NCBI RefSeq assembly: GCF_010907035.1
Contig: NZ_QUMK01000041.1
Span: 1 to 51,362, forward strand
DNA length: 51,362 nucleotides
Direction: 5' to 3'
Origin: Rhodopseudomonas sp. BR0M22
Lineage (GTDB): Bacteria; Pseudomonadota; Alphaproteobacteria; Rhizobiales; Xanthobacteraceae
Part shown: in pieces, positions 26,803 through 40,366 of the stretch
Layout of the letters: the number at the start of each line of letters is the position of its first letter
How positions within the stretch are numbered: the first letter of the stretch is position 1
Notes under the pieces: generated by a model
Databases searched by the model: none
What the model saw: only the letters and a program-made list of their open reading frames with translations
Told to the model about the DNA's origin: nothing
Made by a program: the position numbers and the translations under genes

Positions 26803-29637
26803 CTACGCGAAGCCGTGCTTCTTCTTGCTCTCCAGTTCCTGCGTCTTGAAGGCGTTGAAGCGGGGCAGGAACTTGTCCCAGTCGATGATGTGGGCGTCGA
26901 TTTCCGGGCCGTCGATGCAGGCGTGCTTGCGGACCATCTTGCCGTCGATCGTCACCGGCACCATGCAGGCGCCGCACATTCCCGTGGCATCCACCATGAT
27001 CGAGTTGAGGCTCGCCACGGTCTTGACGCCGTAGGGTTTGGTGAGGTCGCTGACCGCCCGCATCATCAGCGGCGGGCCGATCGCCACCACCTCGGCGATG
27101 CTGCGGCCTTTGCCTTCCTGGTTGGCCTTCATCATCTCCTCGAGCGGGCCGGTGACGAAGCCTTTGACGCCGTAGGAGCCGTCATTGGTGGTGTAGATCA
27201 GCGACAGCTGGTCGCCGAACTCCTGCTTCAGCTTGCCGACGCGCTCGTCGTCGCCGGTCCAGAACAGGAACTCCTTGGCGCGGAAGCCGGAGATCAGCGT
27301 GACGTGGTTGCCGAGCCGCAGGTGCTCGCGCATGATCGGATACACCGGCGGCAGGCCGACGCCGCCGGCGCAGAACACCACGGTCTGGTTGCCCTCATAG
27401 CGGTGCAGCTTGCTGGCGCGGCCGAGCGGGCCGGCGATGCCGGAGAACGCATCGCCGATCGCCATCCGGTTGATCTCGAGCGACGAGGTGCCCATGCCCT
27501 GCACCACGAGGTCGATGGTGCCTTTCTCTGCGTCCCAATCGGCCAGCGTCAGCGGGATCAGTTCGCCCTTCTCCCACGGCAGCACGCGGACGAACTGGCC
27601 GGCCTGGGCCGAGCGCGCCACCATCGGGGCCCGCACGGTGAACTCGACGATGCCGCCGGCGAGCGGCACCTTGCCCACGATAGTCTGCGCCACCTGGCCG
27701 AGCTCGGTGTACTTCGCGGCGCGTTCGACCCGGTCCTTGATCTCGGCCGGGGTGAACGGGATCTCGCCGACGATCTCTCGCGCCGCCGCCTGGCCGTCGC
27801 CGGCCGCGCGGATCGCGGTGGAGCCGCCACGGGCGGCGTCGCCGCCGGTGTAGACGCCGGGAATCGAAGTCCGCTGCGAGCCTTCTTCGACCTCGATGGT
27901 GCCCCATTTGTTGGTCTTCAGGCCCGGCTCGGCGTCCTTCATGATCGGGTTGGCGGTGTTGCCCAGCGCCATGATCACGAGGTCGACCGGCACCCGCTCG
28001 ATCTGCCCGGTCGGCTTCGGGCTGCGGCGGCCGGACTTGTCCGGTTCGCCGAGCTCGTTGACGTCGAGCAGCGCGTGGGTGACGAAGTGGGTGTGGTCGT
28101 CGCCGATGAATTCGCGCGGCGCGCGCAGCACCGCGAGATTGATCTCCTCTTCCAGCGCGTGATGCAGCTCCTCGACGCGAGCCGGCATCTCGCTCTTGGT
28201 GCGGCGATACACGATGGTGACGTTGCCGCCGAGCCGCTTGGCGGTGCGCGCCGCGTCCATCGCGGTGTTGCCGCCGCCGATCACGAACACGTTCTTGCCC
28301 TTCACTTCGGGCAGCGGCGTCTCGTAACGGTCGTCCAGGCCGCGCATCAGGTTGACGCGGGTCAGGAACTCGTTGGCCGACATCACGCCGAGCAGATGCT
28401 CGCCGGGCACGTTCATGAAGGTCGGCAGGCCTGCGCCGGTGCCGACGAAGATCTTCCAGAAGCCTTCGGCCTTGAGGTCTTCGAGCGTCGCGGTCTTGCC
28501 GACCACGAAATTTTTCACGAACCGGCCGCCGAGCAGGATGATCTTTTCGACGACGTCGTCGATCAGCGTGTTGGGCAGGCGGAATTCCGGAATGCCGTAG
28601 CGCAACACGCCGCCGAGGTCGTGGAACGCTTCGAAGATCGTGACCGGGAAGCCCTCGACCGCCAGCAAGTACGCGTTGATCAGACCCGACGGACCGGAGC
28701 CGACCACCGCGATCGGCGGTTTCACCGCTGCCGCCCAGGGTGAGATGCGGCCGGCGAAGCGCGCATTGGCGTTGGGATCGACCAGCTTCTGATGTTCGGG
28801 CAGATACCATTCGAGCTGGCCGATTTCGATCGGACGCTTGGTATGGGTGCAGACGCCCTGGCACTGCAGTTCCTGCGGGCAGACGCGGCCGGTGACGTTC
28901 GGCAGCGGGTTGCAGCTCTCGATCAGCTCCAAGGCTTCGCGATGCTTGCCGTTGCCGAGCAGGTCCAGCATCTCGGGGATGTGGATCTTCACCGGACAGC
29001 CGCCCTTGGCTTCCTTCCGGCCCTGGATCAGAACGCCGAGCTCGCACGGCTTGTCGTCGCACTGCTTGTCGCGCATCACCTCGAGCCAGACGAACAGCTC
29101 GCACTCGCGCACCGAGTAGCCGATCGACTGGTAGCCGAGATAGCCCTGGTTCACGAGTTCGAAGTCGATCGCGCGCTCTTCCGCCGGACGGATGTAGGGC
29201 GGGATGAACGCTTCGCCCGGCCAGCCTTCCGACAGGTTCTCGAACATCGGGTAGCGACCGCGCAGGTGCACGTCGATCGCCTTGATGAACTTGCGCTTGA
29301 ACTTCAGCGGCAGCGCCCAGATGAAGCGCTGCAGGATCGTCGACATGTCGTCGCCGCGTGCGAGCAGATTCCACAGCGTGGTGGTGAAGGCTTCACCCAG
29401 CTCCGGCTGCTGGAATTCCCAGACGATGGCCTGGGTGCCGTCCGCGATGAACATGTTGCGCAGCGACGCCGGGTCGTTGACCAGGCGCTTCTGCAAGAGC
29501 GCGAGCTGCTTCTGGAAGATGCCGACAGCCTCGCTGTTCTGCAGCTCTTCCAGTTCGCTCTTGGAGCTTTCCAGCGTGCTGCGCGCCTGTTGGTAGCGCA
29601 GCACGTCGCTGGAGACCGTTCCGGTGACGTCGCTCAT
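26803..29637 (-). CDS. Single-chain NfnAB-like ferredoxin:NAD(P) transhydrogenase
   Basis: A 944-aa flavoprotein. After about 130 unassigned residues comes a GltD/NfnB-like part with cysteine clusters (CNPLPNVTGRVCP then QCQGVC), a FAD Rossmann motif GSGPSG at 313 and an NAD(P) motif IGGGNTAMDAA near 454. A C-terminal NfnA-like part (from about 650) has a FAD/NAD reductase fold and a [2Fe-2S] site: Asp883, Cys888, Cys891, Cys907 in DATGMCGAC and KHAC. In Nfn these are two subunits that bifurcate electrons between NADPH, NAD and ferredoxin. Its ATG overlaps the stop of the upstream oxidoreductase by 4 bp (ATGA), so the two are translationally coupled. Bifurcation is inferred; glutamate synthase or sulfide dehydrogenase-type activity is the alternative. 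Confidence 0.85.
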   Translation of the reverse strand: MSDVTGTVSSDVLRYQQARSTLESSKSELEELQNSEAVGIFQKQLALLQKRLVNDPASLRNMFIADGTQAIVWEFQQPELGEAFTTTLWNLLARGDDMSTILQRFIWALPLKFKRKFIKAIDVHLRGRYPMFENLSEGWPGEAFIPPYIRPAEERAIDFELVNQGYLGYQSIGYSVRECELFVWLEVMRDKQCDDKPCELGVLIQGRKEAKGGCPVKIHIPEMLDLLGNGKHREALELIESCNPLPNVTGRVCPQELQCQGVCTHTKRPIEIGQLEWYLPEHQKLVDPNANARFAGRISPWAAAVKPPIAVVGSGPSGLINAYLLAVEGFPVTIFEAFHDLGGVLRYGIPEFRLPNTLIDDVVEKIILLGGRFVKNFVVGKTATLEDLKAEGFWKIFVGTGAGLPTFMNVPGEHLLGVMSANEFLTRVNLMRGLDDRYETPLPEVKGKNVFVIGGGNTAMDAARTAKRLGGNVTIVYRRTKSEMPARVEELHHALEEEINLAVLRAPREFIGDDHTHFVTHALLDVNELGEPDKSGRRSPKPTGQIERVPVDLVIMALGNTANPIMKDAEPGLKTNKWGTIEVEEGSQRTSIPGVYTGGDAARGGSTAIRAAGDGQAAAREIVGEIPFTPAEIKDRVERAAKYTELGQVAQTIVGKVPLAGGIVEFTVRAPMVARSAQAGQFVRVLPWEKGELIPLTLADWDAEKGTIDLVVQGMGTSSLEINRMAIGDAFSGIAGPLGRASKLHRYEGNQTVVFCAGGVGLPPVYPIMREHLRLGNHVTLISGFRAKEFLFWTGDDERVGKLKQEFGDQLSLIYTTNDGSYGVKGFVTGPLEEMMKANQEGKGRSIAEVVAIGPPLMMRAVSDLTKPYGVKTVASLNSIMVDATGMCGACMVPVTIDGKMVRKHACIDGPEIDAHIIDWDKFLPRFNAFKTQELESKKKHGFA

Positions 29638-32600
29638 CGAATGATCTCCGCATCGCAGTTGGCCGCTGCGCGGCTCAGTTTGGCCGACAGTTCAGCCGTC
29701 ACCTTGAGCTTGCCGAACACGCCGGGGATGACGTGGGCGACGTCCTTCGGGGCGCCGTCGACGACGATCTTGGTGAGTTCGAACACTTCCGGCACGTCCT
29801 GGTAGCAGCTCTTGCAGTTGGTGCATTTGCCGAGGTCCGCATCGTCGATGTGGATCGGCTCGGCGCCGTTGCCATTGGCGGCCTTGGCGCCGTTGCTCGC
29901 CGCCGCCGCGGCCGGCGCCGGGGCGAAGCCGTTCATCAGCGCACTGAGGCCGTTCGCCGCCGGGGCGTTGGACGAGGCCGCCAGTTCGCTCATGCCGCGC
30001 GCGATCTGATCGAGCGAGGACTCGCGAGCCTTGACCTGTTCCTCGTACTGCTGTTGCAGCGCCTCCAGTTCGACGCGGTGGCTCTCGTCGAGCGCACGGA
30101 CGTCGAAGCCGGCCAGCACCTGCAGCGTGCGCCAGTACTTGCGCCGTTCCTCGACCAGCGCCACCACGGTGTCGCCGACCGACAGCTTGATCAGCTTCTT
30201 GTCGGCGTCGGTGGCGTGGATGTAGGGCGTCTTGCCGACGCGCGCGGCCGGGTCAAGCGCGACGTATTCGTCGATCGGCAGCGCGTCGGCGCCCTCCTTC
30301 AGCGGCTTGAACTGCTTGCGGAAGCGGACTTCGGTGTGGGCGAAGTCGGCCGGCGTCAGCTTGGCCTTCAACAGCTGGGTGGTGCCGTTGTCATCGACAT
30401 ATTCGATCGACTTCGACGCCCAGTCCTGATCGGCTTCCGGATTGCCGTCGAGCGAGAAAGCGCGCTCGTTCTTGCCGGTCTTGCGCGGGTCGTGGACGAA
30501 CACCGGGTTCATCCGGCTCTCGACCGCGAGGCGCGCCTGGCGGCTCGCCGCGGCGTCGCCGATGCCGTGCTCGGCTTGGCACGGCGTATAGACGTCGAGC
30601 ACCGCCGGCGACGAGGTGTGGTTCAGGAACTCCATCACGTTCTTCAGGAAGTGGCCCTGCAGCGCGGTCGCGGTCTGCACCACGAACACGCTGGGATGGA
30701 ACGAGGCGATCAGGCCGAGCTCCTTGCGGGATTCCTGCTTGCCGTGCTGGGCGATGCCGAACCGCGACAGGTCGCTGTCCTGGCCGGTGAGGCTCGCCGT
30801 CGAGGTCTGGCCGCCGGTGTTGGAATAGGCACCGGTGTTCAGCACCACGACCTTGATCGGGGTCTTGGTGGCGAGCAGACGCGACAGCGCGCCGAAGCCG
30901 ATGTCGTAGGTGGCGCCGTCGCCGCCCATGCTCAGCACGGTCGGCAGCATCGACCGCTCTTCCGGGGTGAATTCGCTCCAGCCGAAGTAGCGGAAGTAAC
31001 CCTCGTGCTTGGCCGCATCATAGGCGTCGGCGAGTTCGAGCTTGGCGATGCGCAGCGCCCGGACGTCCTCCGACGCCTTGGCGGTGAGACCTTCGAAGAT
31101 GCCCTTGGCGACGGCAGGCGTGTCCTGGAACAGGCTGTTTACCCACGGATCGGTGTAGGGGTTGAACGGGAAGGTCGACGCATAGACGCTCGAGCAGCCG
31201 GTGGCGTTTGCGATCACCATACCGGACGGGCCGTTGCCGGTCGGGCCGCTCTCGTAGTTGTAGAGCCGCTTCTCCAGCGTCTTCAGGGTCTGGTCGATCC
31301 GGGCGGCGCGCGCGTCGTCGCCGGCGACCAGCGCCCGCTTGGCATTGAGCTGGTCGATCAGGTTCTCCAGCTCGCGGATGTGGTCCTTGCGGCGCTTGTC
31401 GTGGATCGCGTGGTTGGTCGAGGTGACCAGACGGATCGCGGTGACTTCGCCGCAGCCGCGGCAGGCGCCGTGGCCGCCGGTGGTCGCGTAGTAATTGGCG
31501 CGATCAAGCATCAGGCGCTTGGTCTCGCCTTCCGGCTTGGTGGCACTTTCGGTGAACCGGGCGGGAGTGTTCGGGGTGCGGCTGAGAAATTCGAACCGCG
31601 CCTGGAGCTGCTCCAGCATCGGCTCGTCCTGCTCACGATCGACCAGCGCGCCGGGGCCGCAGACGTCGATACATTCGAGACAGCCCGAGCACTTCCACGG
31701 ATCGACGCTCACCGAATACAGGCCGCCGGTGCCCGGCTGGCTCTTCTCCATCGCGTCGAAGAACGGCCGGGTGCGGGCCACCGGATACACCGACAGCGCC
31801 GCCGACAGCTTGCCGAAGTTGCGGTTCAGCGTGGCGTTGTCGACGTTCAGCGCTTCGGCAGCCTGCGCCACGATGTCGTGGAACGGCTTGTCGTCCTTAG
31901 CCTGGCGATACACGTCGCGGATCGCCTCGGTCAGCGCCGGCACCTTCTCGCGAAGCGCGTCTTGCTGAGCCGGCGCGATGTCGAGCTGCTTGATCGCGGT
32001 CAGCAGCAGTTCGTGGATGTCGTGCACCGCATTCGGGATCGCCGCGTCCGGGCAGACCAACGCGCATTCCATACAACCGGTGCAGAGGTCGGCCTTGAAC
32101 TCCGGCACGTTGCGTCGGAACAGGCCCTTGTCCTTGGCGGCGGCGGAGCCGGCCGGCATGAACATGCCGATGCCCGGCAGCACCGGCGCCTCCGCAATGG
32201 TGCCGTCGCGGAACGGCGCGGCGAGCACGTCGTCGTAGTACTCCGGATCGAGGAAGCCCGAAGCCTGCGCCGGCGCCGCGACGCGGCACATCGAGGCCGA
32301 GATCGAGGCGTCGCGCTTGGCCTTCGGCGCCGCCTTGATGGCGTCCTCGCTGAACTCCGGCGCGTCGACATCGACCTTGTGGGTGGCCTCGAGACCCTCG
32401 CGGATCACCGCCATGTTGCCTTCGACGATGTCGCCGCCCTTGGCGCCGAACTTCTTCGAGATCTGCTGACGGATCTTGTTGAGCATCGCGTCCTGCGAGG
32501 CGTCGGCGACCACGCGGTCGACATTGCCGCACACCGCGCCGATGAAGGCGATGCCCATCATGCGGGTTTCGAGTTCGGCGGTGGGTGCGTGGCGCTTGGC

Positions 32601-34622
32601 CACCGCGAAGGCGTCGATGACGTAGAACTTGATCTTCTTGTCGCGGATGGTCTGGCGCGCCTTGGCGGGCAGATCACGCCACACTTCGAGCGGCGACAGG
32701 TTGGTCTGCAGGATGAAGGTGCCGCCCGCGACCAGGCCGCGCAGCGGGTTGGTATGCACGAACACCTTGTGGTCCGGCGAGATCACGATCTCGACGTCTT
32801 CCAGTTCGGCATTGGTGATCTTCACCGGCTCCGGCGACAGCGTGATGTAGTAGTTGGTCGGCGCGCCGCTCTTTTCCGAGCCGTATTTCGGCGCCGACTT
32901 CGAATGCATGTCGAGCGCGCCGGCCAGGATGTCGGTGAGCAGCTTGCCGGACGCGATGGTGCCGTAGCCGCCGATCGAGTGGAAGCGGATGCGGAACGCG
33001 GAGGGCGGCAGCAGATTCGGGTTCTGCCCCGTCGGCAGCGCCATGAACTGGGTTTCCGGATACGCCGCCTTCAGCCGGTTCTGTAGCGCCTCCATCCGCG
33101 GCGACGGGTTCTCGGTGAAGAACTTGGTGCCGAGATACACGAACGGCGCCGAGTCCTGCTTCTCCATATTGGCGTAGCAGGCGATCAGGTCGCGCGGCTG
33201 CAGGTCGTGGCCGCCGAGGCCGAAGATCGCGGTGGTGATCTTCGGCAGTTTGGCCAGCGCCGGAATGCCGGCGTGACGGACGCCGGCGTCGCCGTTCTCC
33301 CGGGCCTTGCACAGCGCCTGGGTGACGAGCTGGGTCAGCGCGGTGACGTCCGAGCGCTCCAACACGGTGACGGCGGTCTTGCCCTTCAGCGCTTCGACCA
33401 GCTCGGCTTCCGGGAATGGCTGCAGCATCTTGATCGATACCACGCCGACCTTCTTGCCCTGCGAGCGCAGATAAGCCGCGACCGCTTCGGCGTCGTCGGT
33501 GACCGAGCCGAGGCCGACCACGACGTGCTCGGCGTCGTCGCACATATAGGTCATCACCGGCTTGTATTCGCGCCCCGTCAGCGCGGCGTATTCGGCCATC
33601 GCTTCGGTGACGAAGCGCGGCACCGCATTGGCGAAGTGCGTGCGGTGGTCGACCGCGCCGGCCTGGAAGTCGGGCTGGTTCTGCACGCCGCCGGTCAGGC
33701 CCGGATTGTCGATATCGACCAGCGCCGGCACGAGCTGCCGGCTGCCCTTCTCGGGCGCATTGATCCACTGCCGCTTCCACGGGCCGCGCAGCTCTTCCGG
33801 CACGTAGGAGAGCGTCTCGACCACGATAGTACCGGCATTATCGGTCTCGATCGTGTCGGCGTTGTCGTCGAGGAACTTCCTGAGCGAGGCGAGGTCGGCC
33901 GGCATGAAGTCGGCCTCGTGCCGCAGCAGATACTGCTTGAGCTGGAACACGCGGCCCTTGGCGCCGAACAGCATCTCCTGCGCCACGGTCGGGCACTTGA
34001 TGCGGCCGGCCGGGTCACCGAGGAATTCCTTGAGCAGCTCCGGCTCCGGCATCAGCGCTTCGGAAAGCATGTGCGAGGTCGCAAAGCCGTCCATCGCGTT
34101 GGCGACCGGGATCAGCGAGGTCGCGGCGACTTTATAAGAGATCGCCGCGAGGTCGGCGGCTTCCTGCGGATTGGAGCCGAACAGGATGGTGTAGCCCGAC
34201 GACAGCAGCGCATAGACGTCGTCGTGGCCGGCCATCACGTTCAGCGAATGCTTCGACACCACGCGCGCGGCGACCTGCAGCACGAAGCCGCCGACCTTCT
34301 TGCCGACGGTGACGTAGTGCGACTCCAGGCCGTACAAGATGCCCTGGCTCGATGAGGCGTTGGAGACGAACTTGCCGCCGGTCAGCGCCGCGCCGAGCGC
34401 GCCGGACTGCGCCGAGTGCTCGCCTTCCGGCTCGAAGAAGAACGGATGCTTGCCCCAGACGTTGCAGCCGCCGGACGAGCGGAACGCCTCATAGATTTCC
34501 GAGATCTCGGTCGAAGGCGTGATCGGGTAGCCGATGACGCCGCCGCAGACATGCCCCATCACCTGCGCCACCGCGCCGTTGCCGTGGATCACTGAGGGAA
34601 TGCCAGGATATTTTGCGTTCAT
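29634..34622 (-). CDS. Pyruvate/2-oxoacid:ferredoxin oxidoreductase, extended
   Basis: A NifJ/PFOR-type enzyme that oxidatively decarboxylates a 2-oxoacid (probably pyruvate) to acyl-CoA and reduces ferredoxin or flavodoxin, or runs in reverse. The 1662 aa exceed the usual ~1200. In order: TPP-pyrimidine domain (GYPITPSTEI), transketolase C-like domain, gamma domain (FHSIGGYGT), two [4Fe-4S] motifs (Cys847 in CTGCMEC, Cys978 in CSGCLEC), and the TPP domain (Cys1054 in GACRGCGE, GGDGATYDIG near 1233, NTGGQTS). Extras: about 130 residues between the two Cys motifs, a charged coiled-coil insert near 1070-1130, and an Ala/Asn-rich linker leading to CTNCKSC at 1600, like a fused ferredoxin. Substrate is not certain. 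Confidence 0.9.
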   Translation of the reverse strand: MNAKYPGIPSVIHGNGAVAQVMGHVCGGVIGYPITPSTEISEIYEAFRSSGGCNVWGKHPFFFEPEGEHSAQSGALGAALTGGKFVSNASSSQGILYGLESHYVTVGKKVGGFVLQVAARVVSKHSLNVMAGHDDVYALLSSGYTILFGSNPQEAADLAAISYKVAATSLIPVANAMDGFATSHMLSEALMPEPELLKEFLGDPAGRIKCPTVAQEMLFGAKGRVFQLKQYLLRHEADFMPADLASLRKFLDDNADTIETDNAGTIVVETLSYVPEELRGPWKRQWINAPEKGSRQLVPALVDIDNPGLTGGVQNQPDFQAGAVDHRTHFANAVPRFVTEAMAEYAALTGREYKPVMTYMCDDAEHVVVGLGSVTDDAEAVAAYLRSQGKKVGVVSIKMLQPFPEAELVEALKGKTAVTVLERSDVTALTQLVTQALCKARENGDAGVRHAGIPALAKLPKITTAIFGLGGHDLQPRDLIACYANMEKQDSAPFVYLGTKFFTENPSPRMEALQNRLKAAYPETQFMALPTGQNPNLLPPSAFRIRFHSIGGYGTIASGKLLTDILAGALDMHSKSAPKYGSEKSGAPTNYYITLSPEPVKITNAELEDVEIVISPDHKVFVHTNPLRGLVAGGTFILQTNLSPLEVWRDLPAKARQTIRDKKIKFYVIDAFAVAKRHAPTAELETRMMGIAFIGAVCGNVDRVVADASQDAMLNKIRQQISKKFGAKGGDIVEGNMAVIREGLEATHKVDVDAPEFSEDAIKAAPKAKRDASISASMCRVAAPAQASGFLDPEYYDDVLAAPFRDGTIAEAPVLPGIGMFMPAGSAAAKDKGLFRRNVPEFKADLCTGCMECALVCPDAAIPNAVHDIHELLLTAIKQLDIAPAQQDALREKVPALTEAIRDVYRQAKDDKPFHDIVAQAAEALNVDNATLNRNFGKLSAALSVYPVARTRPFFDAMEKSQPGTGGLYSVSVDPWKCSGCLECIDVCGPGALVDREQDEPMLEQLQARFEFLSRTPNTPARFTESATKPEGETKRLMLDRANYYATTGGHGACRGCGEVTAIRLVTSTNHAIHDKRRKDHIRELENLIDQLNAKRALVAGDDARAARIDQTLKTLEKRLYNYESGPTGNGPSGMVIANATGCSSVYASTFPFNPYTDPWVNSLFQDTPAVAKGIFEGLTAKASEDVRALRIAKLELADAYDAAKHEGYFRYFGWSEFTPEERSMLPTVLSMGGDGATYDIGFGALSRLLATKTPIKVVVLNTGAYSNTGGQTSTASLTGQDSDLSRFGIAQHGKQESRKELGLIASFHPSVFVVQTATALQGHFLKNVMEFLNHTSSPAVLDVYTPCQAEHGIGDAAASRQARLAVESRMNPVFVHDPRKTGKNERAFSLDGNPEADQDWASKSIEYVDDNGTTQLLKAKLTPADFAHTEVRFRKQFKPLKEGADALPIDEYVALDPAARVGKTPYIHATDADKKLIKLSVGDTVVALVEERRKYWRTLQVLAGFDVRALDESHRVELEALQQQYEEQVKARESSLDQIARGMSELAASSNAPAANGLSALMNGFAPAPAAAAASNGAKAANGNGAEPIHIDDADLGKCTNCKSCYQDVPEVFELTKIVVDGAPKDVAHVIPGVFGKLKVTAELSAKLSRAAANCDAEIIR

Positions 34623-34835
34623 GGGGTCCGTCCGTTCTTGCGTGTCTTGCGTTGGATCGGCGGAGCGAACCCGCCGTGTTGCGTGGGGCCATCTCAGGGG
34701 AAAGGTGTATCGATGCCGGGCGGCTGCTGAGGCAGCGGCCGGGCAGAACCTCCTCGTGGCCTTGTGATTGACTGCTCGCGAGGTATCAGGGCCTCGCTGG
34801 CAGAGACGTTGCGTTGTGTGCGGTGCAGTAGCACG

Positions 34836-34850
34836 CAGGGGAAACCCCTG
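34836..34850. promoter_or_regulatory. Perfect 6-bp hairpin/dyad beside the FNR-type box
   Basis: CAGGGG-AAA-CCCCTG, directly adjoining the TTGA half-site at 34853. It could be a second operator or an RNA hairpin in a leader; no T-run follows on either side. Confidence 0.45.
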
Positions 34851-34852
34851 AT

Positions 34853-34866
34853 TTGACGCGCATCAA
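34853..34866. promoter_or_regulatory. FNR/FixK-type binding site
   Basis: TTGACGCGCATCAA, that is TTGA-N6-TCAA, one base from the TTGAT-N4-ATCAA consensus of FNR, FixK and AadR regulators. It is dyad-symmetric and centred between the divergent oxidoreductase and DUF2478 genes, about 237 bp from each start codon, so either or both could be controlled by anaerobiosis. Confidence 0.6.
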
Positions 34867-35003
34867 AGCGCAAAAAATATGGATCAGAGAGCAATAAAAT
34901 TACGCATCGCCCAAACAACAGGCGGTGCTAGTTGCTTTTGCATACGATCTTCGATCGCATCGTCCCCATTGGTCCGAAAGCAGAATTTCCGCTGGCGTCG
35001 CCT

Positions 35004-35027
35004 CGTTATATACTGTCATATATGACG
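35004..35027. promoter_or_regulatory. Candidate ModE-binding Mo-box
   Basis: CGTTATAT-N8-ATATGACG: two half-sites, 7 of 8 positions in inverted symmetry. It has the same 8-8-8 layout as the E. coli ModE operator as I recall it (CGTTATAT-N8-ACATAACG). It lies 80 bp before the DUF2478 start at 35107. ModE is encoded 1 kb downstream. Confidence 0.65.
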
Positions 35028-35106
35028 ATGGCGGAGCGCAGGGGTATCTGCCCGCCGCTCGTGCTCTCTCGACAGCGGAGCGCCGCCAAGCCGCGGCGAT
35101 GGGCCG

Positions 35107-35676
35107 ATGACCTTCGACTCTCAATGCGATCTGGCTGCTCTGGTCTATGAACGCGGCGAGGACCCGGACCAGGTGCTCGGCGAATTCGCCGCCGACCTCA
35201 ATTCACAGGGATACCGCGCAGTCGGGCTGGTGCAGGTCGGCCCGCGCGGTGACGAGACCCGCGGACTGTCGGCGCGGCTGGTGCATTCCGGCGAGCAGAT
35301 TTCGCTGTATCAGGATCTCGGTCCGATGGCCGAAGGCTGCAGGCTCGATCCGAGCCGCCTGCTCGATGCCGGCGCGCGGGTCGCGTGCGCCCTGGCGCAG
35401 GGAGCCGATCTGCTGATCATCAATCGGTTCGGCCAGCAGGAGACCGAAGGCAGGGGCTTGCTGCATCTGATCGTCGAGGCGCTCAGCGCCGACGTGCCGC
35501 TGGTGATCGCAGTGCCGAGCCATCGCTTCGACGCCTGGATCAAATTCGCCGACGGCATGAGCGTGCGGCTGAAATGCGAGCGGCGCGCGCTCGATCAATG
35601 GTGGGGCAAGCTGCATGGCCGCAGCTTCCGCCGTCCCGCCCACCCTCACGTCAGCGTCTGCGAGGCACTGAAGTAA
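35107..35676 (+). CDS. DUF2478 family protein (copy 1)
   Basis: A 189-aa cytoplasmic protein of the DUF2478 family, which I recall being encoded near molybdate transport genes. Family features here are AALVYERGEDPDQVLGEFA, GYRAVGLVQ, ISLYQDLGPMAEGCRLDPSRL, LLIINRFGQQETEGRGLLH and VPLVIAVPSHRFDAW. The fold suggests a nucleotide-binding protein, but no Walker motif is visible. A Mo-box and an FNR-type box precede it, so molybdate and oxygen control is likely. A second copy lies after modC. Role unknown. Confidence 0.85.
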   Translation: MTFDSQCDLAALVYERGEDPDQVLGEFAADLNSQGYRAVGLVQVGPRGDETRGLSARLVHSGEQISLYQDLGPMAEGCRLDPSRLLDAGARVACALAQGADLLIINRFGQQETEGRGLLHLIVEALSADVPLVIAVPSHRFDAWIKFADGMSVRLKCERRALDQWWGKLHGRSFRRPAHPHVSVCEALK

Positions 35677-35720: not shown

Positions 35721-35930
35721 TTAGTCGACGGCGACCAGCACGTCGGAGGCCTTGATCACGGCCATTGCCGGCTGGCCCTTGGCGAGCTTCAGTTCTTCGG
35801 CGGATTCGTTGGTGATCGAAGCAGTTACGATCGCGCCGCCGCCGATGTCGATACGGACATGCGAGGTGGTGGCGCCCTTGATGACGTCCACGATGGTGCC
35901 CTTGAGCTGATTGCGGGCGCTGATTTTCAT
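35721..35930 (-). CDS. mop: Molbindin (molybdopterin-binding/Mop protein)
   Basis: A 69-aa single Mop domain that binds molybdate, or tungstate, as a storage or buffering oligomer in the cytoplasm. It begins MKISARNQLKGTIVDV and has the standard pattern GATTSHVRIDIGGGAIVTASIT and ELKLAKGQPAMAVIKASDVLV. The ATG at 35930 has AAGGAGA a few bases upstream; the longer frame to 36044 overlaps modE control sequences. It is divergent from modE, with a candidate Mo-box between them, as expected for a ModE-regulated molbindin. Confidence 0.94.
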   Translation of the reverse strand: MKISARNQLKGTIVDVIKGATTSHVRIDIGGGAIVTASITNESAEELKLAKGQPAMAVIKASDVLVAVD

Positions 35931-36028: not shown

Positions 36029-36820
36029 ATGTCCATAGAGGCAACCGTCACACTGAAGACGAAGGAGATTTCCGGGGTCGGCCGCGACCGCATCCGGCTG
36101 CTCCAGGCGGTCGCGCGCGAGGGCAGCATCACGGCCGGCGCCAAGGCGGCGGGCCTCAGCTACAAGGCCGCCTGGGACGCGCTCGACGCGATGACCAACC
36201 TGTTCGGCCGTCCGCTGCTGGAAACCCGCACCGGCGGCAAGGCCGGCGGCGGCGCCCAACTGACGCCGACCGGCGTCAAGGTGATCGAGGCTTTCGGCCG
36301 GCTCGAGGCCGAGATCGCACGGGTGTTTCGCAACCTCGAACCCGAACTCGCCGGCAGCGGCATCACCCCGATCAATCTCGTCTCCGGATTCTTTATGAAG
36401 ACCAGCGCCCGCAACGCCCTTCGCGGCGTCATCACGGATATCAAGGCCGATACGCTCAGCGCCGAAGTCGCCGTGACGGTGTCGCCCGAGACCACGATCT
36501 ACGCGCTGCTGACCGCCGAGAGCGTGCGCAGCCTCGGCCTCGTGGTCGGCCGCGAGGCGATTGTGCTGATCAAGGCGCCGTTCGTGATGATCGCGCCCGG
36601 CCACCAGCCGCCGCTGGTGTCAGCGCGCAATTGCGTGCGCGGCATCGTGCGCCGCGCCGACATCTCCGCCGTCAATGCCGAGATCGTGCTCGATATCGGC
36701 GGCGACAAGACGCTCGCCGCCTCGGTCACGGCCCGGAGTGCCGACGACCTCAAGCTGGCGCCCGGTGATCCGGCCTGCGCGGTGTTCGACGCCGCTCACG
36801 TCATCGTCGCGATCGACTGA
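36029..36820 (+). CDS. modE: Molybdate-responsive regulator ModE
   Basis: A 263-aa transcription regulator. Residues about 20-90 form a LysR-like winged helix (RIRLLQAVAREGSITAGAKA, then SYKAAWDALDAM). Two Mop domains follow (about 125-191 and 197-263; KTSARNALRGVI and VSARNCVRGIV), giving the usual di-mop molybdate sensor. With molybdate bound it should repress mod genes and may activate others through Mo-boxes such as those at 35004 and 35973. It is followed by modA after 144 bp. Confidence 0.95.
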   Translation: MSIEATVTLKTKEISGVGRDRIRLLQAVAREGSITAGAKAAGLSYKAAWDALDAMTNLFGRPLLETRTGGKAGGGAQLTPTGVKVIEAFGRLEAEIARVFRNLEPELAGSGITPINLVSGFFMKTSARNALRGVITDIKADTLSAEVAVTVSPETTIYALLTAESVRSLGLVVGREAIVLIKAPFVMIAPGHQPPLVSARNCVRGIVRRADISAVNAEIVLDIGGDKTLAASVTARSADDLKLAPGDPACAVFDAAHVIVAID

Positions 36821-36964
36821 CGCGATGCACCGACCATGTTCGTCCCGATCTCATCCTTCCGAGCGGAGCGACATCATCACCAAACGAGGCGCGGGGCCGC
36901 GTCGCGCCGCTCGCCTTGTCCGCCATCACGATCAATGCGGACTTCAACCAGTAGGAGACTTCCC

Positions 36965-37738
36965 TTGAAAGCCATTGCCACTCTCAAGCTCGCCCTGTTC
37001 GGCGCAGCTTTCGCTGCCGGTCTTGCCTCTGCGCCGGCGCTCGCCGACTCCGCCAAGGTCGCGGTCGCGGCGAATTTCACCGAGCCGGTGAAGGAGATCG
37101 CTGCGGCGTTCAAGGCCAAGACCGGGCACGAGGTGGTGCTGTCGTTCGGCGCCAGCGGTCAGTTCTACACTCAGATCACCCAGGACGCGCCGTTCGAAGT
37201 ATTCCTGTCGGCCGACTCGGCGCGGCCGAAGAAGCTCGCCGAGGAAGGCCTCGGCGTGAAGGACAGCGTGTTCACCTACGCGGTCGGCAAGCTGGTGTTG
37301 TGGAGCAAGTCGCCGGGCGTGGTGAAGGGTGAAGAGACCCTGAAGCAGGCGTCGATCGCCAAGGTGTCGATCTGCAATCCGGCCGCCGCGCCCTACGGTG
37401 CCGCCGCGGTCGAGACCATGCAGGCGCTGAAGCTGTACGACGACCTCAAGCCGAAGCTGGTCGAAGGCGCCAACATCACCCAGGCCTATCAGTTCGTGCA
37501 GACCGGCAACGCCGAGATCGGCTTCGTGGCGCTGTCGCAGGTGATCGGCGACAAGGACGGCTCGCGCTGGATGGTGCCGCAGAACCTGTACAAGCCGATC
37601 ACCCAGGACGCGGTGCTGCTGAAGAAGGGCGAAGCCAACGCCGCCGCCAAGGCGTTCCTCGACTTCCTCAAGGGCCCGGAGTCGCGCGCCATCATCGAGA
37701 AGTTCGGCTACGAAGTCACCACGCCGAAGGCGAGCTGA
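36965..37738 (+). CDS. modA: Molybdate ABC transporter substrate-binding protein
   Basis: A 257-aa periplasmic protein that captures molybdate. The signal peptide (LKLALFGAAFAAGLASAPALA) ends before DSAKVAVAANFTEP. ModA features include LSFGASGQFYTQI, VFLSADSARPKKL and the AAPYGAAAVETM segment. The TTG at 36965 is chosen because TAGGAGA lies about 8 nt upstream and it gives a normal signal peptide; an ATG-like earlier start would add 43 basic residues. It is the first of modABC, separated from modB by a palindromic repeat. Confidence 0.93.
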   Translation: MKAIATLKLALFGAAFAAGLASAPALADSAKVAVAANFTEPVKEIAAAFKAKTGHEVVLSFGASGQFYTQITQDAPFEVFLSADSARPKKLAEEGLGVKDSVFTYAVGKLVLWSKSPGVVKGEETLKQASIAKVSICNPAAAPYGAAAVETMQALKLYDDLKPKLVEGANITQAYQFVQTGNAEIGFVALSQVIGDKDGSRWMVPQNLYKPITQDAVLLKKGEANAAAKAFLDFLKGPESRAIIEKFGYEVTTPKAS

Positions 37739-37759
37739 CGTTCGCAATGCGCTCTCTCC

Positions 37760-37840
37760 CGTCATTGCGAGCGCAGCGAAACAATCCAGCTCCAAGCACG
37801 GGGCTGGATTGCTTCGTCGCTTCGCTCCTCGCAATGACGG
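37760..37840. repeat. Palindromic repeat, family C, between modA and modB
   Basis: CGTCATTGCGAGCGCAGCG, AACAATCCAGC, centre, GCTGGATTGCTTCG, then CGCTCCTCGCAATGACGG. The two ends are inverted over about 35 bp. It sits in the 113-bp modA-modB gap and may lower expression of modBC relative to modA, as REP elements do in other operons. A second copy is at 45469. Confidence 0.85.
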
Positions 37841-37851
37841 TTGGATAGGCC

Positions 37852-38538
37852 ATGACCAATCTCCCCCCCGACATCTGGCAGCCGGTCTGGCTCACCATCG
37901 AACTGGCGGCGATTACCACGGTGATCCTGCTGATCGTCGGCACGCCGATCGCATGGTGGCTGGCGCGCTCCAAGGCGTGGTGGAAGGAAGGCATCGCGGC
38001 GGTGGTGGCGCTCCCGCTGGTGCTGCCGCCGACCGTGCTCGGCTTTTATCTTCTTGTGCTGATGGGGCCGGACGGGCCAGGCGGTGCGCTGGCGGCGCTG
38101 TGGGGCGGCCGCACCGTGGCGTTCACCTTCGGCGGCCTGGTGTTCGGCTCGGTGATCTATTCGATGCCGTTCGTGGTGCAGCCGATCCGCAATGCGTTCG
38201 ATGCGATCGGCGATCGTCCGCTGGAAGTCGCCGCAACGCTGCGCGCGTCGCCGCTGAAGGCATTCTGGACGGTGGCGGTGCCGCTGGCGCGGCCGGGCTT
38301 TCTGGCCGGCGCGGTGCTCGGCTTCGCTCACACCGTCGGCGAGTTCGGCATCGTGCTGATGATCGGCGGCAACATTCCGGGCAGCACCAAAGTGCTGTCG
38401 GTGGCGATCTACGATTACGTCGAAACCTCGCAGTGGCGTGAGGCCAACATCCTGGCCGGCGGCATGGCGGCGTTCGCCTTCGTGGTGATCCTCACCATGA
38501 TGATGCTGGAAAAACGAACTGCGCGGATCCGGGCATGA
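37852..38538 (+). CDS. modB: Molybdate ABC transporter permease
   Basis: A 228-aa inner-membrane permease with about five to six hydrophobic spans, including [20 protein letters not shown] and [19 protein letters not shown]. The EAA loop lies near [20 protein letters not shown], followed by [21 protein letters not shown]. It overlaps modC by 4 bp (ATGA). ModB identity is supported by the [10 protein letters not shown] and [15 protein letters not shown] motifs typical of molybdate permeases. Confidence 0.94.
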
Positions 38539-39656
38539 GGGCGCTGTCACCTCCCACCATTCGGGCGGCGTTTCGCGGCCAGCTCGGCGGCTTCAAGCTG
38601 GATGCCGCGTTCACGGTGCCGGCCACCGGAATCACCGGCCTGTTCGGGCCCTCCGGCTGCGGCAAGTCCAGCGTGCTGCGCTGCCTCGCCGGGCTGCAGC
38701 ATCTGCCGGCAAGTAGCTGCGAAGTCAGCGGCGAAGTGTGGCAGGACGATACGACCTTCCTGAAACCGCATCATCGGCCGATCGGCTATGTGTTTCAGGA
38801 AGCAAGCCTGTTTCAGCATCTCTCGGTAAGAGCCAACCTGCTGTACGGCGCGCCGCACGAGTCGGTTAAGACCCATGCCGATGCGGTCGAGTTCGACGAA
38901 GTGATCGAACTGCTTGGGCTTGCGAAGCTGCTGGAACGATCGCCGCGCAATCTGTCCGGCGGCGAGCGTCAGCGTGTCGCGATCGGACGGGCGCTGCTGT
39001 CGCAGCCGAAACTCTTGCTAATGGACGAGCCGCTGTCGGCGCTCGACCGGCTCACCAAGGACGAGATCCTGCCGTTCCTGGAGCGGCTGCATGCGCGGCT
39101 GTCGCTGCCGGTGATTTATGTCAGCCACGACATCACCGAGATCGAACGGCTCGCCGATCATCTGGTGCTTATGCAGGCCGGCAAGGTGCTGGCGGTCGGG
39201 CCGCTCGCCGAGCTGCAGAGCGATCCCAAGCTGCCATTGGCGATCGCACGCGATGCAGCCGTCAATTTCGACGCCGAGGTCGAAAGCTACGATTCCAACT
39301 ATGGCCTGGTGACGCTGCAGATCGACGGCGGGCGGCTGCTGGTGCCGTCGGCGCCCGTGGCGAGTGGCGAACTCCGCCGGGTTCGGATCGCCGCCAGCGA
39401 CGTCAGCCTGGCGCGTGAGCTGCCGCAGGCGAGTTCGATCCTCAACGCGGTGGCGGCGCGGATCGTCACCACCTCGCCGGTCGGCGCCAACGAGATGCTG
39501 GTGGTGCTGGCGCTCGGCCGCGAAGGTCATGGCGGCCGGCTGTTGGCGCGGCTCAGCCGGCGGTCATGGGATCTGCTCCGGCTCGCCGAAGGGGTCGACG
39601 TCTATGCGCAGATCAAGGGCGTCGCGCTCGCGCCAGGGCGTGATGGCCACGCGTAG
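38535..39656 (+). CDS. modC: Molybdate ABC transporter ATP-binding protein
   Basis: A 373-aa ATPase. Residues 1-235 hold Walker A GPSGCGKS, signature LSGGERQR, Walker [13 protein letters not shown] and H-loop VSHD. The C-terminal part carries a TOBE/Mop-like regulatory domain ([20 protein letters not shown] and beyond) that binds molybdate. It starts within the last codons of modB. The GTGCCGC-GAG-GCGGCAC hairpin at 39671 follows the stop. Confidence 0.94.
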
Positions 39657-39670
39657 TTGGCGGCGCTGAC

Positions 39671-39687
39671 GTGCCGCGAGGCGGCAC
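39671..39687. terminator. Hairpin after modC
   Basis: GTGCCGC-GAG-GCGGCAC, a perfect 7-bp stem 15 bp beyond the modC stop. No T-run follows, so its strength as a terminator is uncertain. Confidence 0.4.
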
Positions 39688-39802
39688 GAAGTTCGCATTC
39701 TCTTTGTTGATCGCTGCAACGGCGGCGCGGGCTACTACGCGACTACCAGTCGTGTCGGGTCAACGACGCCTTGCGTCCGTATCTCATGGAGGAGAATCGA
39801 CA

Positions 39803-40366
39803 ATGTCGTTCGAAAGCAATCAACTGATGCCGATCGCGGCGCTGCGCGGCGGGCCGGGGACGCCGGCTGCCGACGTGCTCACCGCGTTCGCGCTGCGCCG
39901 CAAGGCCGAAGGCGTCGACGTCGTCGGCGTGATCGCCCCGCCCGAGGATGCCAGCCACGGTCATGGCGGCGGTCACGAAGGCTGCGAGTGCCGCAGCGAG
40001 CTGATCGATATCGCCACCGGCGACCGCTACGCGATGCATCAGGATCTCGGCTCGGGATCGCAGGCCTGCAATCTCAACTCGTCGTCGCTGGCTTTGGCGG
40101 CGGGGGCGGTCGAACGCGCGGTAGCGCGCAAGCCGGCGCTGGTGGTGCTGAGCCGGTTCGGCGGCCAGGAGGCGGTGCGCGGCGGCTTGATGTCGGCGTT
40201 CCAGGCGGCGATCGCGGCCGGCGTGCCGGTGGCCTGTGTGGTGGCGCCAAAGGCCGAGGACGTCTGGAACGACTTCGCCCAGGGGCTGTCGGTGTCGCTG
40301 CCGCCGGAGGCGGATGCGCTGGAAGCGTGGTGGCGCGATCACGCCCGCGGACGAAACGCGGCGTGA
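39803..40366 (+). CDS. DUF2478 family protein (copy 2, His/Cys-rich)
   Basis: A 187-aa paralogue of the DUF2478 gene at 35107. Shared blocks are PAADVLTAFALR, GVDVVGVIAP, MHQDLGSGSQACNLNSSSLA, LVVLSRFGGQEAVRGGLMSA and VPVACVVAPKAEDVW. It has an extra HGHGGGHEGCEC segment near residues 53-64, which could bind a metal. The ATG at 39803 has GGAGGAG upstream. No Mo-box is visible before it; it may be read from the mod transcript or its own promoter. Its end overlaps that of the convergent subtilase gene by 28 bp. Confidence 0.83.
   Translation: MSFESNQLMPIAALRGGPGTPAADVLTAFALRRKAEGVDVVGVIAPPEDASHGHGGGHEGCECRSELIDIATGDRYAMHQDLGSGSQACNLNSSSLALAAGAVERAVARKPALVVLSRFGGQEAVRGGLMSAFQAAIAAGVPVACVVAPKAEDVWNDFAQGLSVSLPPEADALEAWWRDHARGRNAA

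Follow-up and report, generated by a model that had tools for sequence, protein, structure and literature searches.

Where does an oversized pyruvate:ferredoxin oxidoreductase (PFOR) deliver its electrons when its gene is joined to that of a single-chain, Nfn-like transhydrogenase? The question is raised by a stretch of Rhodopseudomonas sp. BR0M22 DNA (contig NZ_QUMK01000041.1, assembly GCF_010907035.1), whose full 51,362 nucleotides we refer to as the window and whose host genome measures 5.29 Mb. There, a PFOR-like protein of 1662 residues (POR; 29634..34622, minus strand) is followed by an Nfn-like protein of 944 residues (NFN; 26803..29637, minus strand), the two genes overlapping by ATGA at 29634-29637. 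An initial annotation of this locus had proposed a low-potential supply line from 2-oxoacid to ferredoxin and NAD(P)H, controlled by oxygen and molybdenum and perhaps serving nitrogenase. Here, we show that in the testable loci of the POR clade a C-terminal ferredoxin-like tail and NFN are either both present or both absent, and we consider it probable, though with clear reservations, that POR and NFN make up one dedicated electron line in which transfer proceeds via a tethered ferredoxin arm.

Architecture of POR

The Pfam matches of POR (POR_N, POR, PFOR_II and TPP_enzyme_C) are the domains of a one-chain PFOR, and no flavin domain of the cytochrome P450 reductase type is among them. T35, E68 and R120 align with T31, E64 and R114 of the Desulfovibrio PFOR, and N1268 is the Asn of YSNTGG. 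All four residues are identical in 66/66 relatives and presumably serve the thiamine pyrophosphate (TPP) and substrate roles of their equivalents in the PFOR active site. Conservation was assessed after filtering for near-full length, which 65 of 80 POR and 59 of 61 NFN candidates passed, so that the 66-sequence POR set holds tailed proteins only.

Sixteen Cys residues are invariant in this set. The first twelve appear to fit the three [4Fe-4S] clusters of PFOR: eight (847/850/853/857 and 978/981/984/988) lie in two CxxCxxCxxxC motifs within residues 847-988 (31659..32084, minus strand), separated by an insertion that is helical in the model, and four (1054/1057/1143/1348) mark the proximal cluster in the TPP domain (residues 1054-1348; 30579..31463, minus strand) according to the 6cin alignment. 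The last four (1600/1603/1606/1656) constitute a predicted additional C-terminal ferredoxin domain with a single [4Fe-4S] cluster (residues 1595-1662; 29637..29840, minus strand). In the AlphaFold2 model of residues 834-1662, which matches the PFOR structures 6cin and 1b0p, the helical insertions are followed by a long helical hairpin (residues 1484-1550; 29973..30173, minus strand) and then by a disordered linker (residues 1548-1594; 29841..29981, minus strand). This linker is of low complexity, consisting to 73% of A/P/G/S/N/T compared with 41% in the core, and is predicted to be flexible, with a predicted local distance difference test score (pLDDT) below 50 for residues 1542-1586; among POR relatives its length ranges from 36 to 66 residues.

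Architecture of NFN

NFN is matched over residues 1-944 by NF009415/PRK12779 (2005 bits vs a cut-off of 1519) and belongs to Pattern C, which Liang et al. 2019 (PMC6405883) describe as an uncharacterised, fused form of Nfn from Actinobacteria and Proteobacteria that is about 200 aa longer and has its NfnA-like half at the C-terminus. Its Pfam matches are Fer4_20, Pyr_redox_2 and DHODB_Fe-S_bind. The NfnL-like part (residues 193-623; 27769..29061, minus strand), predicted to hold two [4Fe-4S] clusters, flavin adenine dinucleotide (FAD) and NADPH, is 43% identical to 5jca_L and 4ylf_B by fold alignment and matches by sequence at E 6e-103, and the NfnS-like part (residues 651-940; 26818..27687, minus strand), predicted to hold FAD, [2Fe-2S] and NADH, matches 5jca_S at E 3.5e-70. 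The model agrees in fold with both, with TM-scores by target of 0.84-0.86 for NfnL and 0.88-0.90 for NfnS.

The residues expected of an Nfn are largely retained. The NfnB motif GRVCPQExQCx3C is present as GRVCPQELQCQGVC at 250-263, where C253, E256, C259 and C263 are invariant in 60/60 sequences, as is the Asp-ligated [2Fe-2S] set D883, C888, C891 and C907, although the window protein departs from the motif DGTGMCGxCRx10C in having Met for Arg and a last spacing of 15. R353, aligned with the EFRLP Arg of 5jca_L, is likewise invariant in 60/60, and so is the Arg pair R478/R479; we take the Arg equivalent to R353 to be the one that forms a hydrogen bond to N5 of the bifurcating FAD.

Two features set NFN apart. 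Residues 1-190 (29068..29637, minus strand) form an additional N-terminal domain that is helical in the model, and residues 1-215 gave 0 sequence matches in the PDB at E up to 1. Directly behind it, at residues 193-214 (28996..29061, minus strand), an altered distal-cluster motif, Cx4Cx15CPV, replaces Cx2Cx4Cx3CPV, with C193, C198 and C214 invariant in 60/60. Since published docking puts ferredoxin near the distal cluster of Nfn, the altered part of NFN would be its ferredoxin port.

The same alteration invites the reading that NFN does not bifurcate and works as a plain NAD(P)+ reductase for POR, which would make the pair a bacterial pyruvate:NAD(P)+ oxidoreductase. According to PMC6405883, bifurcating and non-bifurcating homologs are indistinguishable from sequence alone. 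However, both FAD/nucleotide modules of NFN are present, and it would be hard to explain why the Asp-ligated [2Fe-2S] site and the conserved Arg stay invariant if just one half were at work; we therefore regard a non-bifurcating NFN as unlikely.

POR and NFN as a conserved pair

To describe how widely the pair occurs, we use a scan of named genomes with POR, from which the best 80 of 216 relatives were kept (58-97% identity in the best segment). These best 80 are spread over Alpha-, Beta- and Gammaproteobacteria, Magnetococcales and Actinomycetota, and include purple bacteria, Accumulibacter, Propionivibrio and propionibacteria, with the closest named relatives in Rhodopseudomonas. Most of the named holders are facultative or microaerobic. 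In 66 of the 67 loci in which adjacency could be tested (13 of the 80 could not), NFN is the next gene after POR in the same orientation, with the identical 4-nt overlap in 41 of the 66. The adjacency of an oversized PFOR gene and a single-chain Nfn-like gene, noticed in the initial annotation, is thus conserved, and this pairing supports the view of a coupled module of Nfn type leading from 2-oxoacid to NAD(P)H.

A search started from NFN led to the same arrangement. In samples of 398 and 396 genomes we found nine holders besides the window, and POR was directly upstream in 9/9. Eight of them belong to one genus, taken as Magnetococcales (overlapping the named loci L082, L094 and L105), and the remaining one is the Actinotalea genome of L080, on which the actinobacterial sample had been centred; because three match named loci and one is L080, five of the nine are new relative to the POR scan. 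NFN is rare, occurring in 1/289 genomes of the class sample (over the NF009415 cut-off), 9/398 of the phylum sample and 1/396 of the actinobacterial sample, and a correlation in the class sample was dropped because 1/289 is too rare. Within the window's genus, the POR gene occurs in 16/16 sampled genomes (window included), in one of them split across two contigs, and a PFOR-family search of the window's genome returned POR and a single other short match.

We also looked for a third widespread partner gene in the 6-kb flanks and discarded the idea: among 68 loci outside Rhodopseudomonas, the commonest neighbour family other than NFN was seen in eight, sometimes on one side and sometimes on the other, and the next two in five (judged by eye to be a type II secretion-like ATPase) and four (likewise an M16-like peptidase). 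The E2 component of pyruvate dehydrogenase, considered as a co-occurrence marker, was matched in 27/27 genomes (eight over cut-off) and is uninformative. In two loci the POR frame appears broken, either by sequencing error or by a real frameshift: in L192 (G1445:C2:58000-74000) after about 1229 codons, with the tail and NFN following, and in L204 (G1425:C112:8000-20576) near the C-terminus.

Joint presence of the ferredoxin tail and NFN

Within the POR clade, tail and NFN are both present in 73, both absent in 14 and present singly in 0 of 87 testable loci. This tally started from 112 listed loci, of which 6 duplicates were removed to give 106; 18 were not testable, including L211 of the Rnf clade described below, whose member L210 was set apart and is outside the 14 tail-less loci, and the short loci L115-L124 and further Rhodopseudomonas loci were left out. 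The sole exception among the 67 loci tested for adjacency, L071, encodes a POR that stops before linker and ferredoxin, and so does L125, a second copy of POR in the L033 genome. An order-wide sample, with a match in 33 of 377 genomes, added further tail-less PORs, most from one genus; 26 of these 33 holders were examined (24 fetched regions, G038 and the window), leaving out G1315, G1332, G1360, G1384, G1397, G1404 and G1422. This tie between tail and NFN indicates NAD(P)H as the sink for the electrons.

A tree of 78 sequences was built after setting aside 13 named loci that were near-identical or broken, as well as several duplicates. In it, the eight tail-less sequences used fall in two places. 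The first group has full support and stands beside a tailed clade with support 0.97, and the tree as a whole suggests that tail and NFN were likely lost twice.

The tail-less giant PORs without NFN are those of L199, L201-L209, L212, L213, L071 and L125. No shared partner is seen in the four of these loci with listed neighbours (L195, which equals L071, L199, L202 and L205). We noticed by eye an open reading frame resembling the beta subunit of 2-oxoacid oxidoreductases upstream in L195, and one resembling ferredoxin-NADP reductase downstream in L202, on the opposite strand.

A tailed relative inside rnf operons

A distant POR homolog, P0008 of genome G038, is 35-42% identical to POR in segments and has the same architecture, including the linker and a CxxCxxC tail. 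It lies in the gene order rnfB-POR-rnfC-rnfD-rnfG-rnfE-rnfA. Searching 398 genomes with P0008 gave two more full-length relatives, 62-65% identical and from two other families, so that the order rnfB-POR-rnfCDGEA was seen in 3/3 loci found, in three families; in each, a tailed giant POR sits between rnfB and rnfC of a complete rnf operon (L126 2423-12666, minus strand; L210 7367-17635; L211 6607-16862). Of the 46 holders in that search, we examined the window, G626, G712 and the Magnetococcales genus; in the remaining 35, the match covered mostly the first half of P0008. In G517, G521, G476 and others, we noted PORs whose open frames span about 1250 or about 685 codons; they share about 44% identity with the first half of the Rnf-type POR and may be its shorter relatives.

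The position of a tailed POR inside the rnf operon means that the arm accompanies another ferredoxin-using acceptor there. In the loci found, tailed PORs thus adjoin either NFN or Rnf, each a ferredoxin-using oxidoreductase of NAD(P). In a Rhodocyclales metagenome-assembled genome (MAG; L097 2-9381), rnfCDGEA-like genes lie directly upstream of POR-NFN, the one such case among the 80 named loci, and this organism may use both acceptors, NFN and Rnf.

Regulation and the molybdenum neighbourhood

POR and the divergent DUF2478 gene (35107-35676) are separated by 484 bp, in which the initial annotation placed an FNR/FixK box and a Mo-box; both are there. The FNR/FixK box (34853..34866, minus strand) lies 244 nt before the POR start codon and has one mismatch to TTGATN4ATCAA, with an equally good site in a fraction of 0.007 of shuffles of the gap. 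The whole window holds five FNR-like sites against 0.49 expected, four of them outside this gap, so that such a site is not unique to it. A box with at most one mismatch is present in the window and in 12/12 named Rhodopseudomonas loci, and in 11/67 other loci, making 23/79 overall against 0.82 expected, which is in line with the proposed control by oxygen. The Rhodopseudomonas loci without DUF2478 (L029-L031) keep the box, which we therefore assign to POR. A TGCTA-like element 20-25 nt after the box in Rhodopseudomonas may be a -10 region and is too weak to claim. In the long leader a known-RNA search gave one chance-level match (E 0.72), and a promoter and terminator scan gave nothing useful.

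The Mo-box-like palindrome (35004..35027) is 80 nt before DUF2478; seen from the FNR box, it lies towards DUF2478 and modE, at a distance of 382-405 nt from the POR start codon, and it shows no mismatch to the Mo-box consensus, with 0.03 matches of up to three mismatches expected in the window. The genes that follow are those named in the initial annotation, i.e., DUF2478, mop (35721-35930, minus strand), modE (36029-36820) and modA-, modB- and modC-like genes (36836-39656), to which we add a second DUF2478 gene (39671-40366), so that two DUF2478 genes flank the mop/modE/modABC block. In Rhodopseudomonas, the Mo-box is found in 8/12 named loci, and DUF2478 and modE adjoin the pair in 9/12 and 12/12, respectively. 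Among the remaining loci tested, the 500 nt before POR held no Mo-box-like site, and DUF2478 and modE adjoin the pair in 0/68 other named loci within the flanks covered. Because the box is on the modE side and, of the 80 named loci, only those of Rhodopseudomonas have molybdenum genes beside the pair, we did not retain molybdenum control as a component of the system and judge the Mo-box to belong to the neighbouring genes, although within Rhodopseudomonas ModE may have a local effect on POR.

The suggestion that the pair supplies low-potential electrons to nitrogenase or another reductase, under control of oxygen and molybdenum, was examined through nifD. In its favour, molybdenum genes do adjoin the pair in Rhodopseudomonas, the window's genome has NifH-family genes (part of them perhaps chlorophyllide reductase), and nifD was found in 26/50 genomes with the pair (20 over cut-off), and in 20/44 outside Rhodopseudomonas. 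The survey used 50 of the 80 named loci; nifD was not found in 24/50, including Kineosporia sp. A_224 and Nostocoides sp. F2B08, and in the incomplete MAGs among them such absence is weak evidence. With nifD found in 26/50, a tie of the pair to nif genes is not supported, and a NifJ-type nitrogen-fixation system was set aside. Moreover, the predicted ferredoxin of POR is tethered and tied to NFN, and within the 80 named loci the molybdenum neighbourhood was seen in Rhodopseudomonas only. Taken together, service to nitrogenase is very improbable.

Proposed electron path

We propose that the POR-NFN line is active at low oxygen. POR would oxidise a 2-oxoacid, most likely pyruvate, using coenzyme A (CoA) and TPP, and the electrons would cross its three [4Fe-4S] clusters to a fourth in the ferredoxin domain on the flexible C-terminal arm. 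This arm would swing to NFN and dock at the remodelled ferredoxin port, i.e., the altered distal cluster and the extra N-terminal domain. At the bifurcating FAD of NFN, low-potential electrons and electrons from NADH would together reduce NADP+, so that the overall reaction would be pyruvate + CoA + NADH + 2 NADP+ -> acetyl-CoA + CO2 + NAD+ + 2 NADPH; operating in reverse, the line would be an NADPH-driven pyruvate synthase. In the Rnf-type tailed POR, the arm would deliver straight to Rnf as its dedicated acceptor. We infer the coupling of POR to NFN from genomes, and the run toward NADPH with consumption of NADH is less certain than the tethered transfer itself.

It is conceivable that the line mainly runs backwards, with NFN bifurcating the electrons of two NADPH to NAD+ and the tail, and with POR acting as a CO2-fixing pyruvate synthase in acetate assimilation or in the redox balance of photoheterotrophs. 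The bifurcating direction of Nfn is published as NADPH oxidation at the bifurcating FAD, though its physiological role is given as NADP+ reduction, and pyruvate synthase has been described as an anaplerotic route in purple bacteria. The sequence itself does not fix the direction, and the holders include Actinotalea, Nostocoides, Kineosporia, Propionibacterium and Magnetococcales. These are non-phototrophs, which speaks against this reading, and we give the reverse line little weight.

Several observations count against a POR-NFN line with a tethered ferredoxin. POR misses the cut-off of the PFOR equivalog TIGR02176 (415 vs 911 bits), so that its substrate is possibly other than pyruvate. Its tail matches Fer4_15 weakly, below cut-off (E 6e-4), and ferredoxin 7m1o also weakly (E 0.0033), and the invariance of the tail Cys (66/66) was measured in a length-selected set. 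The published distal motif of NfnB, RCx2Cx4Cx3CPV, is not matched by NFN, which with C193x4C198x15C214PV has one Cys fewer and, among 60 sequences, no further conserved Cys between these three; the missing Cys could mean a changed or an absent cluster. Both structure models are cofactor-free predictions with mean pLDDT of 80 and 73, lowest near the NFN cluster sites. As a single genus accounts for 11 of the 14 tail-less loci, the independent losses of tail and NFN are few, and since the second tail-less group (L195 = L071, with L125) has a support of only 0.39, there may have been a single loss. Finally, an FNR box within 350 nt is missing from 56 of 79 loci. We nevertheless favour the tethered line.

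Implications

A broader idea, which we hold only tentatively, is that of a modular class of giant PFORs, each using a swinging ferredoxin arm, in the manner of a lipoyl arm, to serve a dedicated acceptor encoded alongside, in one clade a single-chain bifurcating Nfn and in another an ion-pumping Rnf. If true, low-potential electrons would bypass the free ferredoxin pool, and bifurcation could then operate in facultative anaerobes whose cells are exposed to oxygen. A ferredoxin would here be held on a tether between the enzyme that supplies electrons and the one that bifurcates, and the relative inside rnf operons hints at a reusable way of moving low-potential electrons with no free carrier involved. 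A specific PFOR-like gene partner and, in the loci tested, the joint retention or loss of tail and NFN also give Pattern C Nfn a concrete, testable job. Mobiluncus curtisii, the published representative of Pattern C, is the earliest-branching Nfn lineage in a published tree (PMC6085437); if the idea holds, this earliest-placed branch would belong to the giant-PFOR class and not to free Nfn.

Comparison with known systems

NFN resembles Pattern C Nfn (NF009415/PRK12779) in order, with the NfnB-like half first and the NfnA-like half last, and in its approximately 200 extra residues. The passages of PMC6405883 considered here mention neither a dedicated PFOR partner nor a ferredoxin tail nor an altered distal cluster. 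The legend of its Figure 2 names PFOR among the nfn gene neighbours, so that PFOR-nfn adjacency may already be drawn there. Among open-licence papers, we found no description of a tethered-ferredoxin PFOR linked to Pattern C Nfn or inside rnf operons. The window's genome also encodes PRK12775 (L108 3660-6869, plus strand), a fused Nfn-like protein with a C-terminal ferritin domain, which could be the "R. palustris Nfn" of published surveys.

Compared with NfnAB/NfnSL of P. furiosus (5jca) and T. maritima (4ylf), NFN is alike in fold, FAD-site Arg, [2Fe-2S] ligands and Arg pair, and differs in being one chain of reversed order, in its N-terminal helical domain and distal motif, and in the dedicated PFOR-like gene upstream. 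POR shares domains I-III, the three [4Fe-4S] sites and the TPP/substrate residues with the one-chain PFORs of Moorella (6cin) and Desulfovibrio (1b0p/7plm), whereas it is about 430-490 residues longer, owing to the helical insertions, hairpin, linker and fourth [4Fe-4S] domain, and falls below the equivalog cut-off.

Pyruvate:NADP+ oxidoreductase (PNO) of Euglena and Cryptosporidium is a PFOR fused to a cytochrome P450 reductase-type domain. Like the proposed POR-NFN line, it passes pyruvate electrons to NADP+ via a dedicated partner, whereas the tail of POR would be a ferredoxin and its partner is Nfn-like. The tailed POR of the rnf operons (L126, L210 and L211) is closer in kind, having the same linker and tail beside a ferredoxin-using NAD oxidoreductase, and differs in its lower identity to POR, in the membrane Rnf complex that would be its acceptor, and in having no NFN adjacent. 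The parts of POR-NFN are of known kinds, and what may be new is the link of a tethered tail to a Pattern C Nfn, together with its place within rnf operons.

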